This document shows, one piece after another, positions 20,160 through 24,086 of a DNA stretch of 32,043 nt (positions are counted from its first letter, which is position 1; every line of letters begins with the position of its first letter). The notes below the pieces were generated by a model. It worked only from the letters and a program-made list of their open reading frames with translations, had not been told where the DNA came from and made no database searches. The DNA is from Hydrogenophilales bacterium CG_4_10_14_3_um_filter_63_21. Its GTDB lineage: Bacteria; Pseudomonadota; Gammaproteobacteria; Burkholderiales; Thiobacillaceae. The position numbers were made by a program, and so were the translations under genes. The stretch is from assembly GCA_002784045.1 (NCBI GenBank), contig PFJX01000134.1, positions 1-32,043 on the forward strand, written 5' to 3'.

Positions 20160-21128
20160 ATGCTGACTGACCGTTTCGGCCGTGCCATCGAATATCTGCG
20201 GCTTTCCGTCACCGACCGCTGCGACCTGCGTTGCGCCTATTGCATCCCGGAAGGTTTCAAGGGTTTCGAGGAACCGGCGCACTGGTTGAGCTTCGATGAA
20301 ATCGAACGCCTGCTCGGCCTGTTCGCCAATCTCGGCATGAGGCGGGTCCGCCTCACCGGCGGCGAGCCCCTGTTGCGCCGCAACGTCACCGACCTGGCCC
20401 GCCGCATCGCCGTCCTGCCTGGCGTCGATGAGGTGTCGCTCTCTACCAACGCCACCCAGTTGAGCCGGATGGCGGTTGGCCTGAAAACCGCCGGGGTCAC
20501 CCGCCTGAATGTCAGCCTCGATTCCCTTCGCGCCGAGACCATCGAAAAAATCAACGGTCGGCCCGTGCTGGACGAGGTCTTGGCCGGACTGGAAGGCGCC
20601 AGCGCCGCCGGCTTCGCGCCGATCAAGATCAACATAGTGGTGATGCGCGACAACGCCGACGAGGTCGATGCGATGGTTGATTTCTGCCTGCAACGGGGTC
20701 ATGTCCTGCGTCTGATCGAACTCACGCCGATGGGCAACACCGCCCGCAAGATGGGTTATGTCGATCTGCAACCGATCAAACGGCAACTGCAACAACGCTT
20801 CGGCCTGATCGACAAGGTCATGCCCGGCGGCGGCCCGGCCCGCTATCTCGGCACGGCGGACGGCCGCTTCACCGTGGGCTTCATCACGCCGCTATCGCAA
20901 CACTTCTGCGCAACCTGCAACCGGGTGCGCCTGACCGTGGACGGCCAGTTGCACCTGTGCCTGGGCCAGGAAGACCGGGTAGATTTCCGTGCCCTGCTGC
21001 GCAATGGCGCCACGGACGACGACCTGATCGCCGCCTTCCACCAGGCGATGAACCTCAAGCCCGAGCGTCACGAATTCCGCGAACAGCCGGAAAAACTGAT
21101 TCGTTTCATGAGCATGACGGGGGGATAA
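20160..21128 (+). CDS. moaA: GTP 3',8-cyclase MoaA
   Basis: Cytosolic radical-SAM enzyme of 322 residues that catalyses the first step of molybdenum cofactor synthesis (GTP to 3',8-cyclo-GTP, with MoaC). The radical-SAM cluster motif is CDLRCAYC (cysteines near 20, 24 and 27), followed by RLTGGEPLLRR for SAM binding. The C-terminal second [4Fe-4S] site is FCATCNRVRL plus LCLG. The protein ends in the catalytically required Gly-Gly (MSMTGG). Length is normal. The C-terminal cluster and Gly-Gly separate it from NirJ-like haem d1 enzymes. It has no clear Shine-Dalgarno sequence and is followed after 52 bases by the beta-propeller gene. Other moa genes are not in the window. Confidence 0.95.
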   Translation: MLTDRFGRAIEYLRLSVTDRCDLRCAYCIPEGFKGFEEPAHWLSFDEIERLLGLFANLGMRRVRLTGGEPLLRRNVTDLARRIAVLPGVDEVSLSTNATQLSRMAVGLKTAGVTRLNVSLDSLRAETIEKINGRPVLDEVLAGLEGASAAGFAPIKINIVVMRDNADEVDAMVDFCLQRGHVLRLIELTPMGNTARKMGYVDLQPIKRQLQQRFGLIDKVMPGGGPARYLGTADGRFTVGFITPLSQHFCATCNRVRLTVDGQLHLCLGQEDRVDFRALLRNGATDDDLIAAFHQAMNLKPERHEFREQPEKLIRFMSMTGG

Positions 21129-21180
21129 CCCCAGATCCGAACGCGCAAGTGTTCACCCACTCACTGATGAAGGAGACACC

Positions 21181-22392
21181 ATGAGCAATAAACCCGCACT
21201 CGCTATCGCCGCCCTGGCCGGCTTGATCGCCACCCCCACCCTCGCCGCGCCCGTCTGGCCCGACGTCGTGGTGCAACTGCACGGTTCTGGCCATGCCTAT
21301 ATCGTCGATACCAAGACCGATGCCGTGGTAGCCGACCTGGAAACCTGCAAGGGCGGTGGCCTCGGTACCACCACCCCGGACGCGAAGAAGGTCTATGTGA
21401 GCTGCGCCGGCGAAGGCCAGAAGGAACTGGTCGTCATCGACCTGGCCGGCAGGAAGGTGATCAAGCGCATCGAGACTGGCAACCGGCCCAAGCACGGCGT
21501 GGTCAGTCCGGACGGCCGATGGGTCGGCCTCAACCACTGGGGCCTGGATGGCGGCAAGCTGCGCCACACCTTCGTGAGCACGGCCGACGACCGCATCACC
21601 AAGGCCATCGATCTGTCCGTCTCCGGCACGGCCAAGGGCGTGGCCTCCATGCACAACGCCTGGAGCCTGGATTCGCGCTATTTCTTCGCCGTGGATCGCG
21701 TGGACAACCGCCTGGTGGTGATCGACACGAAAGACTGGAGCATGAAGACCCACGCCGTACCCAGCGCGCCACACTATGCCGTGCCCAGCCCGGACGGCAA
21801 GGAGCTGTGGCTGGTACATGAGGGCAACGACACGGCCATGCCCGGCATCATCGTCTATGACCTGACCCACACCGACATGCCCGTCATCGCTCGAATGGAT
21901 ATGCCCCTGATCGGCGAGGAAGCGGTGGAGGCCCACCACGGCAACTTCACCCAGGACGGCAAGTATTTCATGGCGCTCAACCGCGGTCCTGGCGGCAATC
22001 TCAAGGGCCGCGAAGTGGCCTTCTTCCGCGCCGACAACAAGCAACTTGTGTATCGGCTCACCACCGCCAGCAACGGCATCGGCCACAGCTACAACACGCC
22101 GGACGGGCGCTACGCCGTGATCACCAATTACGGCAACAACGTCATCTCGATCATTGATGTGGCGCAGAAGAAAACCGTCAAGGACCTGAAGATCGGCGCC
22201 GGCCGCATGGGCCATGTAGCCTTCACACCGGACGGGCACTACGGCTACGTGTCGAACGACAAGGACGGCAACCTCCACAAGCTGGACATGTGGAAGCTGG
22301 CCGTGATCAAGGAAATCAAGACCGGCGGCAAGCCAGGCGGCGGCCAGGTGTTCAACGTCTGGACCAACGTGTTCGAGGAATTGCCGCGCTGA
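21181..22392 (+). CDS. Secreted YVTN/cytochrome d1-like beta-propeller protein
   Basis: Periplasmic protein of 403 residues with a signal peptide (about 1-22, ending LAA). Repeated blades include YVSCAGEGQKELVVIDLAGR, FFAVDRVDNRLVVIDT, YAVITNYGNNVISIIDVA and YGYVSNDKDG. This is the seven-to-eight-bladed YVTN/cytochrome d1 haem-domain fold, shared with NirF, NirN and the d1 part of cd1 nitrite reductase. There is no CxxCH motif, so no covalent haem is expected. Whether it binds haem d1 or acts only as a scaffold cannot be told; no nir genes are nearby. AAGGAG lies eight bases before the ATG. A strong terminator follows the stop. Pairing with moaA may reflect a molybdoenzyme-related role, which is inference. 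Confidence 0.82.
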   Translation: MSNKPALAIAALAGLIATPTLAAPVWPDVVVQLHGSGHAYIVDTKTDAVVADLETCKGGGLGTTTPDAKKVYVSCAGEGQKELVVIDLAGRKVIKRIETGNRPKHGVVSPDGRWVGLNHWGLDGGKLRHTFVSTADDRITKAIDLSVSGTAKGVASMHNAWSLDSRYFFAVDRVDNRLVVIDTKDWSMKTHAVPSAPHYAVPSPDGKELWLVHEGNDTAMPGIIVYDLTHTDMPVIARMDMPLIGEEAVEAHHGNFTQDGKYFMALNRGPGGNLKGREVAFFRADNKQLVYRLTTASNGIGHSYNTPDGRYAVITNYGNNVISIIDVAQKKTVKDLKIGAGRMGHVAFTPDGHYGYVSNDKDGNLHKLDMWKLAVIKEIKTGGKPGGGQVFNVWTNVFEELPR

Positions 22393-22418
22393 ATAGGTCA
22401 TTCAGGTTTCTGCATACC

Positions 22419-22442
22419 GGCCGCCGCGAGGCGGCCTTTTTT
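22419..22442 (+). terminator. Intrinsic terminator of the moaA-propeller unit
   Basis: A perfect stem GGCCGCC/GGCGGCC (22419-22425 and 22430-22436) with a GCGA tetraloop is followed by six T (22437-22442). It lies 27 bases past the propeller stop codon. Textbook rho-independent terminator. Confidence 0.92.
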
Positions 22443-22530
22443 ATCCCCAGGCCAGCCAGGCCAGATAACCCCCCACTGCCACCAACAGCAGGCCCAGCGC
22501 CTGTTTCAAGCGCGCCGAGAAAGCCATCAT
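22441..22530 (-). pseudogene. Membrane-protein C-terminal fragment, CcdA-like
   Basis: The frame encodes MMAFSARLKQALGLLLVAVG and GYLAWLAWG, then stops at 22441. Upstream the same frame continues back (LVRVWAQSRG) to the EF-hand stop at 22576. An amphipathic segment followed by a final hydrophobic helix resembles the C-terminal end of CcdA/DsbD-type or similar transporters. It may be a gene relic or a tiny membrane protein. Evidence is weak. Confidence 0.3.
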
Positions 22531-22575
22531 CCCGCGCGATTGTGCCCAGACCCGCACCAGACCAGTTTTCCTGGT

Positions 22576-22905
22576 TTAACGCCCTTCACCCCGCCAGCCG
22601 AAGCCACCGCCCCGATAGCGCCGCGCCAACGTTTCCACCAACTCGCCCTCGCCGATACGGCCATCACGGTTGCTATCCAGGTCGTCGAATTCGAGCAAAC
22701 GGCGTGGGTCGCAGCGTGGCCGCCCCCTGGAATCCCGCCGCTCCTGGCACTGGGCGCGCAGGGCGGCATATTCCTCGCGGCTCAGATAGCCATCATGGTC
22801 CTGGTCGTGCACCGAGAAAGCTCGCGGCGAAGCGGGGTTTGGCCCGACCGCCGCGCTGGGCAGCGGCGCGGCCAGGAGCACAAGAATCATGAGCAAAGCG
22901 CGCAT
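22576..22905 (-). CDS. Exported EF-hand protein
   Basis: Periplasmic protein of 109 residues with a signal peptide (about 1-19) and two EF-hand calcium loops. The first is DQDHDGYLSREEY (about 34-46); the second is DLDSNRDGRIGEGEL (about 74-88). The D-x-D-x-D-G pattern and terminal Glu are kept in the first loop, and the second is close to it. The tail is rich in R and G. The ATG shares its A with the TGA of the hydrogenase small-subunit gene (TGATG), so the two are translationally coupled. A calcium-sensing or structural role next to a periplasmic hydrogenase subunit is unusual; a direct interaction is only inferred. Confidence 0.82.
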   Translation of the reverse strand: MRALLMILVLLAAPLPSAAVGPNPASPRAFSVHDQDHDGYLSREEYAALRAQCQERRDSRGRPRCDPRRLLEFDDLDSNRDGRIGEGELVETLARRYRGGGFGWRGEGR

Positions 22906-24086
22906 CAGCGGGCCTCTTTCAGGTAATCCACCAGGGCTTGCATGTCGGCGTCCTCCAGAGTGAAACGGTGCGAGCGGATTTTTCCGGAGCGCAACAGGGC
23001 CGGTACGTCATTGGGCGGGGTCTTCAGGCTGGCCGGATCGGCGTCGTGGCAATAGACGCAGTTGCTGTCGTATACCGCAGCACCCCGTTGCGCCGGGGCA
23101 GTGTCGGGTTCGACCGCCGCCAAGGCTTTCGCCTCGATGGGCCGGTAGAAACTGCCCTTGTCCCAGAACCCTGCCTCGCTGCAGCCCAGGCAGGGGTGGC
23201 CGGATTCGACCGGATTGCTCACCCCGTTCCAGCGCACCGTGGAACAGGCGTTATGGGTCAGCGGCCCCTTGCAGCCCAGTTCCAGCAGACACCAGCCGCT
23301 GCGCGCACCGACATCGTCGAAGGTCTTGGCGAAACGCCCGGCCTCATAGTGGCCGCGCCGCGAACAACGGTCATGCACTGTCTCGCCGTAGAAGGCAAGT
23401 GGGCGGCCTTGCGCATCCAGCGCGGGGAAGTCGCCGAAGGCAACGCGATGCGCCAGCACGGCGCTCATCACCTCGGGGATGGGCGGGCAGCCCGGCAGGT
23501 TGACCAGGGGACGGCGCGGCACCAGGCCGCGCTGCATCAACTCGCCGATACCCATCGCCCCGGTGGGATTCGGCGCGGCGGCGGGCAGGCCACCAAAACT
23601 GGCGCAGGTGCCCACCGCCAGCACCGCTTCGGCCGCTTCCAGGCATCGCCTGAGCTGGCTCAGGTTGTCCTCGCCGGCAATGGTGGAATAGGCGCCATCC
23701 AGCGCGGTGGGCACGGAACCGTCCACCACCAGCAGGAGCCGTCCGGCGGATTCCTTCAGCACCGTCTCCCGCGCCGCTTCCGCCGCTTCGCCGGAAGCCG
23801 CTTGCAGGGTGTGGTGGTAATCCAGCGAAATCAGTTCGAACAGCAACCGCTCGATGGAGGGCGCCGACGAACGAGTCAGCGATTCGGTGCAGCCGGTGCA
23901 TTCCTGGAACGACAGCCAGACCACCGGCAGCCGCCGCGCCCGACTCAGGGCATCAGCCAGAATCGGGCCGGCGCTGGGCGGCAGCGCCAGCAGCGAAGCG
24001 CTCAGCGCGCAGAACTTGAGAAAGGCGCGCCGACTAAGGCCAGAACCGGGGGATAAAGAAAAATCAATGCGAGCGGTGCGATCCAT
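22905..24086 (-). CDS. [NiFe]-hydrogenase small subunit fused to cytochrome c
   Basis: Tat-exported Fe-S subunit of 393 residues. The Tat motif SRRAFLKF has its arginines at 19-20. Proximal-cluster cysteines are in ECTGC (63 and 66), GTCASFGG and LPGCPP. The distal-cluster histidine and cysteines are in HDRCSRRGHY and WCLLELGCKGP. The medial-cluster cysteines are in ACSTVRWN and HPCLGC, followed by SEAGFWD. The proximal motif reads CTGC rather than the CTCC of oxygen-tolerant enzymes. In place of the usual C-terminal membrane helix there is a small c-type cytochrome domain (about 325-393) with CVYCH at 343-347. No MP-type methionine is seen; His373 or Met382 could be the sixth ligand. The start at 24086 has GAGG upstream. 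No large subunit or hyp genes are nearby. Electrons could pass from the Fe-S chain to the fused haem and on to periplasmic carriers. Confidence 0.88.
   Translation of the reverse strand: MDRTARIDFSLSPGSGLSRRAFLKFCALSASLLALPPSAGPILADALSRARRLPVVWLSFQECTGCTESLTRSSAPSIERLLFELISLDYHHTLQAASGEAAEAARETVLKESAGRLLLVVDGSVPTALDGAYSTIAGEDNLSQLRRCLEAAEAVLAVGTCASFGGLPAAAPNPTGAMGIGELMQRGLVPRRPLVNLPGCPPIPEVMSAVLAHRVAFGDFPALDAQGRPLAFYGETVHDRCSRRGHYEAGRFAKTFDDVGARSGWCLLELGCKGPLTHNACSTVRWNGVSNPVESGHPCLGCSEAGFWDKGSFYRPIEAKALAAVEPDTAPAQRGAAVYDSNCVYCHDADPASLKTPPNDVPALLRSGKIRSHRFTLEDADMQALVDYLKEAR

Follow-up and report, generated by a model that had tools for sequence, protein, structure and literature searches.

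To our knowledge, group 1 [NiFe]-hydrogenases have been treated as fixed pairs of a small and a large subunit encoded together, and a small-subunit gene that stands alone and continues into a cytochrome c domain raises the question of where its catalytic half lies and where its electrons go. Such a gene occupies positions 22905-24086 of the minus strand, a strand that an initial annotation had left unspecified, in the stretch of DNA analysed here, which is 32,043 nucleotides long, is referred to below as the window and corresponds to contig C127 of a draft genome (3.03 Mb in 174 contigs, 99.92% complete). The stand-alone gene recurs in relatives without an adjoining catalytic half, which suggests that its product borrows the catalytic half of another hydrogenase in the same cell.

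Anatomy of the fusion protein

The open reading frame runs from an ATG at 24084-24086 to a stop codon at 22905-22907 and encodes 393 residues, and profile matches and orthologues support it as a gene. Its product is a hydrogenase small subunit by its score against TIGR00391 (hydA; 381.5 bits, with a cut-off of 179.5) and also matches the Pfam family NiFe_hyd_SSU_C (103.5). The N-terminal Tat signal reads SRRAFLKF, and within the twin-arginine motif itself (RRAFLKFCA, residues 19-27, 24006-24032, minus strand) R19, R20, F22 and K24 are invariant in 15 aligned sequences. The core that follows (residues 50-314, 23145-23939) houses three Fe-S cluster sites, and all 11 ligands of a group 1-like small subunit, which the initial annotation had reported as visible, were found, namely C63, C66, C161 and C200; H238, C241, C266 and C272; and C281, C299 and C302. 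They are conserved across the fusions, one of them falling within a masked stretch of the protein at locus L145.

The C-terminal membrane tail of unfused small subunits is absent, as judged from a comparison of the tails by eye, and its place is taken by a haem c domain of about residues 328-393 (22908-23105, minus strand). Pfam Cytochrom_C matches the whole protein at 22.8 and the isolated domain at 29.3 (cut-off 21.3), while Cytochrome_CBB3 scores 24.4 on the whole protein, below its cut-off of 27, and 28.3 on the isolated domain, above it. The haem-binding motif, CVYCH, lies at residues 343-347 (23046-23060), the position given in the initial annotation, and C343, C346 and H347 are present in 25 of 25 fusion loci, in agreement with the earlier statement that the haem is attached covalently to the same chain. 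With a CxxCH motif and a cytochrome c fold, recognised by Pfam and by three modelled helices, this is a class I-like c-type cytochrome domain. Overall, the protein is intact, carries a Tat signal and belongs to the group 1e (Isp) type of small subunit, with a mono-haem c domain in the position of the membrane tail.

An AlphaFold model built from 60 aligned sequences (mean pLDDT 79.8, pTM 0.71; a run from only 10 close sequences gave a mean pLDDT of 43.8) folds the haem domain into three helices, at a pLDDT of about 76-93, and places His373 in the loop preceding the last of them. The core is modelled less well in places, for instance at residues 67-97 and 288-317 (pLDDT about 55-70), and the best fold match, HydA of Allochromatium vinosum (3myr), was superposed on this partly poorly modelled core with an rmsd of 2.3 over 270 columns.

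His373 (22968-22970, minus strand) is, like the CxxCH motif, invariant in all 25 fusions and is the sole histidine after that motif in 20 of them; a methionine that might act as the sixth ligand is missing after CxxCH in 16 of the 25. Because of these two features, the simplest reading of the sequence is that His373 probably provides the sixth ligand, and such bis-His ligation would give the haem a low potential.

A single clade within the Isp-type small subunits

Small subunits with a C-terminal CxxCH domain, for which the initial annotation had proposed to look, were found in Betaproteobacteria of the Thiobacillus type and in other Gammaproteobacteria, at no fewer than 25 distinct loci. In a sample of the same family, 10 of 117 genomes carry the fusion, with proteins 74-86% identical to that of the window; the remaining matches with a listed E of 1e-100 or lower all end between residues 318 and 363 and reach at most 65% identity. 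The class sample contains it in 8 of 369 genomes, these being the window's own genome and seven from five other families (f135 and f187, twice each, and f175, f203 and f204, once each). Of the 399 genomes sampled from the order and the 398 sampled from the phylum, only the window's own genome yielded it. A scan of named genomes returned at least 15 fusions among the best 80 of 584 loci, and the carriers among those 80 include Thiobacillus sp. 65-1059, Thiobacillus sp. 65-1402, a Hydrogenophilales genome and metagenome-assembled genomes called Thiohalomonas denitrificans and Sedimenticola thiotaurini; the other samples had already supplied seven of these 15 fusions, which brings the number of distinct loci to 25.

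A tree was built from 74 small subunits (17 fusions, 48 Isp-type and 9 outgroup sequences, with a leading stop sign in the L096 row read as a gap). In it the 17 fusions group together as a single clade (support 100/100), which is nested among the Isp-type sequences and has a long stem of 0.59 changes per column, and the window protein thus belongs among the group 1e HynS proteins by its position. The fusion would on this evidence have originated once, from an Isp-type HynS that exchanged its C-terminal membrane tail for the haem domain. Estimates of dN/dS for eight orthologue pairs (nine were run and the pair L096-L097 was left out) range from 0.09 to 0.18 in the core and from 0.12 to 0.49 in the haem domain, indicating purifying selection on both.

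An assembly artefact, a frameshift or a decaying pseudogene might be suspected in a draft of 174 contigs, and a relative (G007) does have a broken second fragment behind its gene. We rejected artefact, frameshift and chance because the fusion is uninterrupted in 25 distinct loci from different assemblies, including a single-contig genome, and dN/dS is low in both parts, which leaves this explanation a practically negligible probability; the stop or frameshift between the FWD and CVYCH motifs that would have undone the initial annotation was looked for, and there is none. The same annotation had asked whether such a fusion is already described for a named hydrogenase subgroup. Our searches, which covered open-access literature, showed no description of the fusion or of a named subgroup with it.

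The search for a large subunit

As the initial annotation had claimed, there is no large subunit in the window, in which no frame holds both large-subunit motifs, and a reading of the list of open reading frames agrees with its further claim that the window lacks hyp genes and a maturation protease. The motif pair was likewise found in one frame at 0 of the 25 fusion loci, of which 18 have at least 4 kb of downstream sequence and some have short flanks, and the order hynS-isp1-isp2-hynL is accordingly found at none of them. By the same scan, 50 of 65 unfused control loci contain both motifs, and all 47 controls with at least 4 kb downstream have the large subunit downstream on the same strand. 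A PF00374 search of 17 fusion genomes gave a match on the contig of the fusion only in G059, where it is 64 kb away, weak and group 3-like, and in the single-contig genome G627, in which the fusion lies at 260,686 and hynS and hynL at 2,138,598 and 2,134,306. On the motif scan and this search, a large subunit within the window or close to an orthologue was rejected.

The initial annotation had also advised a search of the rest of the genome for a large subunit and hyp genes, and this uncovered a group 1e operon. A second small subunit on contig C69, which has an ordinary tail and is 60% identical to the fusion, is followed by isp1 and isp2 (both assigned by eye), a gene for a 152-residue protein and the first codons of hynL, which is cut by the end of the contig. 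This order matches that of the group 1e hydrogenase in the available text of PMC7735108, and Isp1 and Isp2 are assigned to electron transfer rather than maturation in that of PMC3102683; the 152-residue protein between isp2 and hynL (locus L006, 14053-14508) has no Pfam match. Hyp-like genes lie on C15, hoxFUY on C81 and hoxH on C76, all named by eye with Pfam matches for some genes. The hoxH gene sits directly behind an hsdR-like restriction gene (locus L007, 3934-8720), at a distance from hoxFUY, which runs out at the C81 contig edge, and this hox operon is rearranged or mis-assembled. A Hyf/Hyc-like cluster on contig C136 (locus L080, 7485-9615, minus strand) includes a large-subunit-like protein of 526 residues without any CxxC, where a NiFe site could therefore not be coordinated as usual, and the cluster is probably a hydrogenase-related complex of another function.

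When subunits are counted genome by genome, the small ones outnumber the group 1/2-type large ones by exactly one copy in all 13 of the fusion genomes tabulated. The tally was typed by hand, with only strong PF00374 matches of group 1/2 type taken as large subunits and pieces summed; the cut hynL start of the window's own genome (G000) counted as one, and the 79-residue remnant in G007 was left out. Three of the four genomes kept out of the tally show the same excess of one (G710, fragmented, with three against two, and G031 and G078 with one against none), and G099 (one against one) has no excess, with a fusion and a large-subunit fragment at a contig edge. Alongside the fusion, an Isp-type HynS without the haem domain occurs in 14 of the 17 fusion genomes, all 14 at least 87% complete, and was not found in the other three, which are 75, 79 and 84% complete. 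Full-length Isp-type HynS (identity of at least 60% and a match reaching residue 344 or beyond, with rows counted by hand) occurs in 42 of the 369 genomes of the class sample, and all eight fusion genomes are among these 42 (hypergeometric 1.5e-8, or 1.3e-7 for seven of seven without the window's own genome, both uncorrected for kinship). Conversely, only 8 of the 42 carry the fusion, which is therefore dispensable.

Flanking genes

Directly downstream of the fusion, at 22576-22905 on the minus strand, is a gene for an EF-hand protein (EF-hand_7, 43.6 bits) whose start codon overlaps the fusion stop codon. A gene for such a small protein with a signal-like start lies directly behind the fusion in 19 of the 25 loci (12 of the 17 in the first set, together with L147, L148, L149, L151 and L152 and, by eye, L155 and L172), and Pfam confirmed EF-hands in all three neighbour proteins tested. 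It was not found intact in the other six, with no copy found at L073, L074, L076 and L145, an apparently decayed one at L096 (by eye) and none seen at L075, which ends 626 bases downstream. From this linkage we would guess that the EF-hand protein is a probable partner or assembly factor of the fusion.

Other features of these neighbourhoods are more local. A moaA-like gene lies near the EF-hand and fusion pair both in the window (20160-22905) and in another genus of the family (locus L077, 7828-9130), and in the window a gene for a cytochrome-D1-like propeller separates it from the pair. Genes for NnrS-like membrane proteins, named by eye, are found near the fusion at the gammaproteobacterial loci L095, L096 and L097. 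In G007, a broken second copy of the fusion core lies behind the EF-hand gene (locus L069, contig C282, 3261-3497); it covers about 79 residues at 73% identity, has one internal stop and is the remnant of a tandem duplication.

Conserved and rewritten positions

The pattern of conservation differs between the two ends of the electron path. The 57 unfused sequences compared (48 Isp-type and 9 outgroup) are invariant at 86 core positions. All 24 unmasked fusions have the same residue at 61 of these (54 when the masked row, L145, is included), and at 80 the consensus residue is seen in most of the 25 fusions. The three loops around the proximal cluster, whose known neighbour is the large subunit, retain each of their 21 invariant positions in at least 20 of 24 fusions. 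Six of the 86 are lost in most fusions, and five of these (237, 239, 242, 245 and 248) surround the His-x-x-Cys of the distal cluster, in a loop of residues 237-251 (23334-23378, minus strand) that has lost 5 of 10 invariant positions, compared with 1 of the 76 outside it (Fisher p 4e-5, a post hoc value, since the loop was chosen after the alignment had been inspected). In the Desulfovibrio fructosovorans enzyme, according to the available text of PMC5297734, electrons exit at Phe193 and Ser196 and the distal ligands are residues 184, 187, 212 and 218. The window ligands 238, 241, 266 and 272 differ from these by a constant shift of 54, and on that text the exit residues therefore correspond to 247 and 250. 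With the distal loop changed and the proximal loops kept, it is the electron-exit side that has been rewritten and the active-site side that has been retained. The initial annotation had mentioned neither this altered loop nor the invariant His373 or the EF-hand neighbour.

Single positions vary further. E62, which adjoins the proximal cluster, is replaced by alanine in 2 of 17 fusions. Residue 148 is an extra cysteine in 15 of 17 and is alanine, valine, threonine or isoleucine in the 57 unfused subunits. Position 65 is glycine in 17 of 17 fusions and cysteine in all nine outgroup sequences (a CTCC proximal motif), and the O2-tolerant six-cysteine type of the group 1d membrane-bound enzymes was rejected, the extra proximal cysteine being absent.

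A proposed sharing of the catalytic subunit and its rivals

The initial annotation had left two possibilities, an electron-transfer module with a distant large subunit and a repurposed Fe-S/haem protein, of which we favour the former. With moderate confidence, we propose that the group 1e enzyme has in the fusion an alternative small subunit, soluble and periplasmic, which shares HynL and passes electrons from H2 to periplasmic cytochromes. Having no large subunit of its own, it would bind the HynL made by the Isp operon elsewhere on the chromosome, HynL being exported through the Tat pathway with whichever small subunit it met; electrons from H2 would then run from the distal cluster to the attached bis-His haem and on to periplasmic cytochromes, instead of to Isp1/Isp2 and the quinone pool, with the EF-hand protein as a probable partner or assembly factor. 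We favour the sharing of HynL because the proximal loops are kept and the Isp-type enzyme is present in the 14 sufficiently complete fusion genomes, and the excess of one small subunit, the rewritten distal loop, the Tat motif and the lost tail also count towards it. Against it stand the cut hynL of the window's own genome, the three fusion genomes in which HynS was not found, the dispensability of the fusion (8 of 42), the EF-hand gene that is not intact in 6 of 25 loci and the change of E62 to alanine in 2 of 17; the conserved proximal loops could serve only to hold their cluster, and the long stem of the clade would also be expected if the function had changed.

The main rival is the repurposed protein, a duplicated HynS that gave up its large subunit and became, with the EF-hand protein, a periplasmic carrier with three clusters and a haem, or a redox sensor. 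The lack of a large subunit beside any of the 25 loci, the long stem, and a genomic place and conserved neighbour of its own all accord with such a protein, which we nonetheless consider rather unlikely, about half as probable as the sharing of HynL, given that 21 of 21 proximal-loop positions that face a large subunit in known enzymes are kept, each in at least 20 of 24 fusions, and that an independent carrier would not be expected to co-occur so strictly with the Isp-type enzyme. The co-occurrence, together with linkage to a protein of Ca2+-binding type, would suit an aid to HynL assembly or export, or a regulator of the Isp-type enzyme whose haem senses the periplasmic redox state, but three conserved cluster sites and a haem site are needless for a mere chaperone, and a role of this kind seems improbable. 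Pairing with a different large subunit of the same cell, such as the group 3 HoxH or another of group 1/2, is to be thought highly improbable: such subunits do occur in the window's own genome (HoxH, on C76) and in several fusion genomes, but the fusion itself is a small subunit of the group 1e type, G002, G029, G059, G060, G627, G639 and G860 have no group 1/2-type large subunit other than the Isp-type HynL, and HoxH is assigned by eye to hoxFUY, although these lie on separate contigs.

Were HynL shared in this way, a single catalytic subunit would suffice to switch the destination of electrons from H2. A haem-bearing small subunit that is conserved as an orphan, and kept in single copy alongside the Isp-type enzyme, points to the exchange of electron-transfer subunits on one core, which bears on H2 use in bacteria like Thiobacillus and Sedimenticola and would offer a natural example of a hydrogenase wired to haem. 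More tentatively, one catalytic subunit may be common to two interchangeable and distantly encoded small subunits, one of them anchored and delivering by way of Isp1/Isp2 to the quinone pool, the other soluble, ending in the haem domain and delivering directly to periplasmic cytochromes, with the choice of partner, possibly tuned by an EF-hand protein that binds Ca2+, switching where the electrons go.

Comparison with known systems

In working with a c-type haem in the periplasm, the fusion would resemble the periplasmic cytochrome-reducing hydrogenases of Desulfovibrio, which are soluble and pass electrons to the c-type haem of cytochrome c3; in those enzymes, unlike here, the electrons go to a cytochrome that is a multi-haem protein of its own, and the gene for the large subunit adjoins that of the small one. 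Its haem domain shows a weak likeness, across nearly its whole length, to SorB, the cytochrome subunit of sulfite dehydrogenase (2blf_B), at an E of 0.068 that is below significance, and SorB is a separate subunit of another enzyme, whereas the haem domain of the fusion shares a chain with the Fe-S core. The nearest solved relative is A. vinosum HydA (3myr), also the best sequence match at 378 bits. With the Isp-type HynS of hynS-isp1-isp2-hynL operons, to which it is 60% identical in its own genome, the fusion has in common the core fold, the 11 Fe-S ligands and the clade; it differs in lacking the membrane tail and the isp1, isp2 and hynL genes behind it, and in possessing a haem c domain, an altered distal-cluster loop and an EF-hand neighbour.
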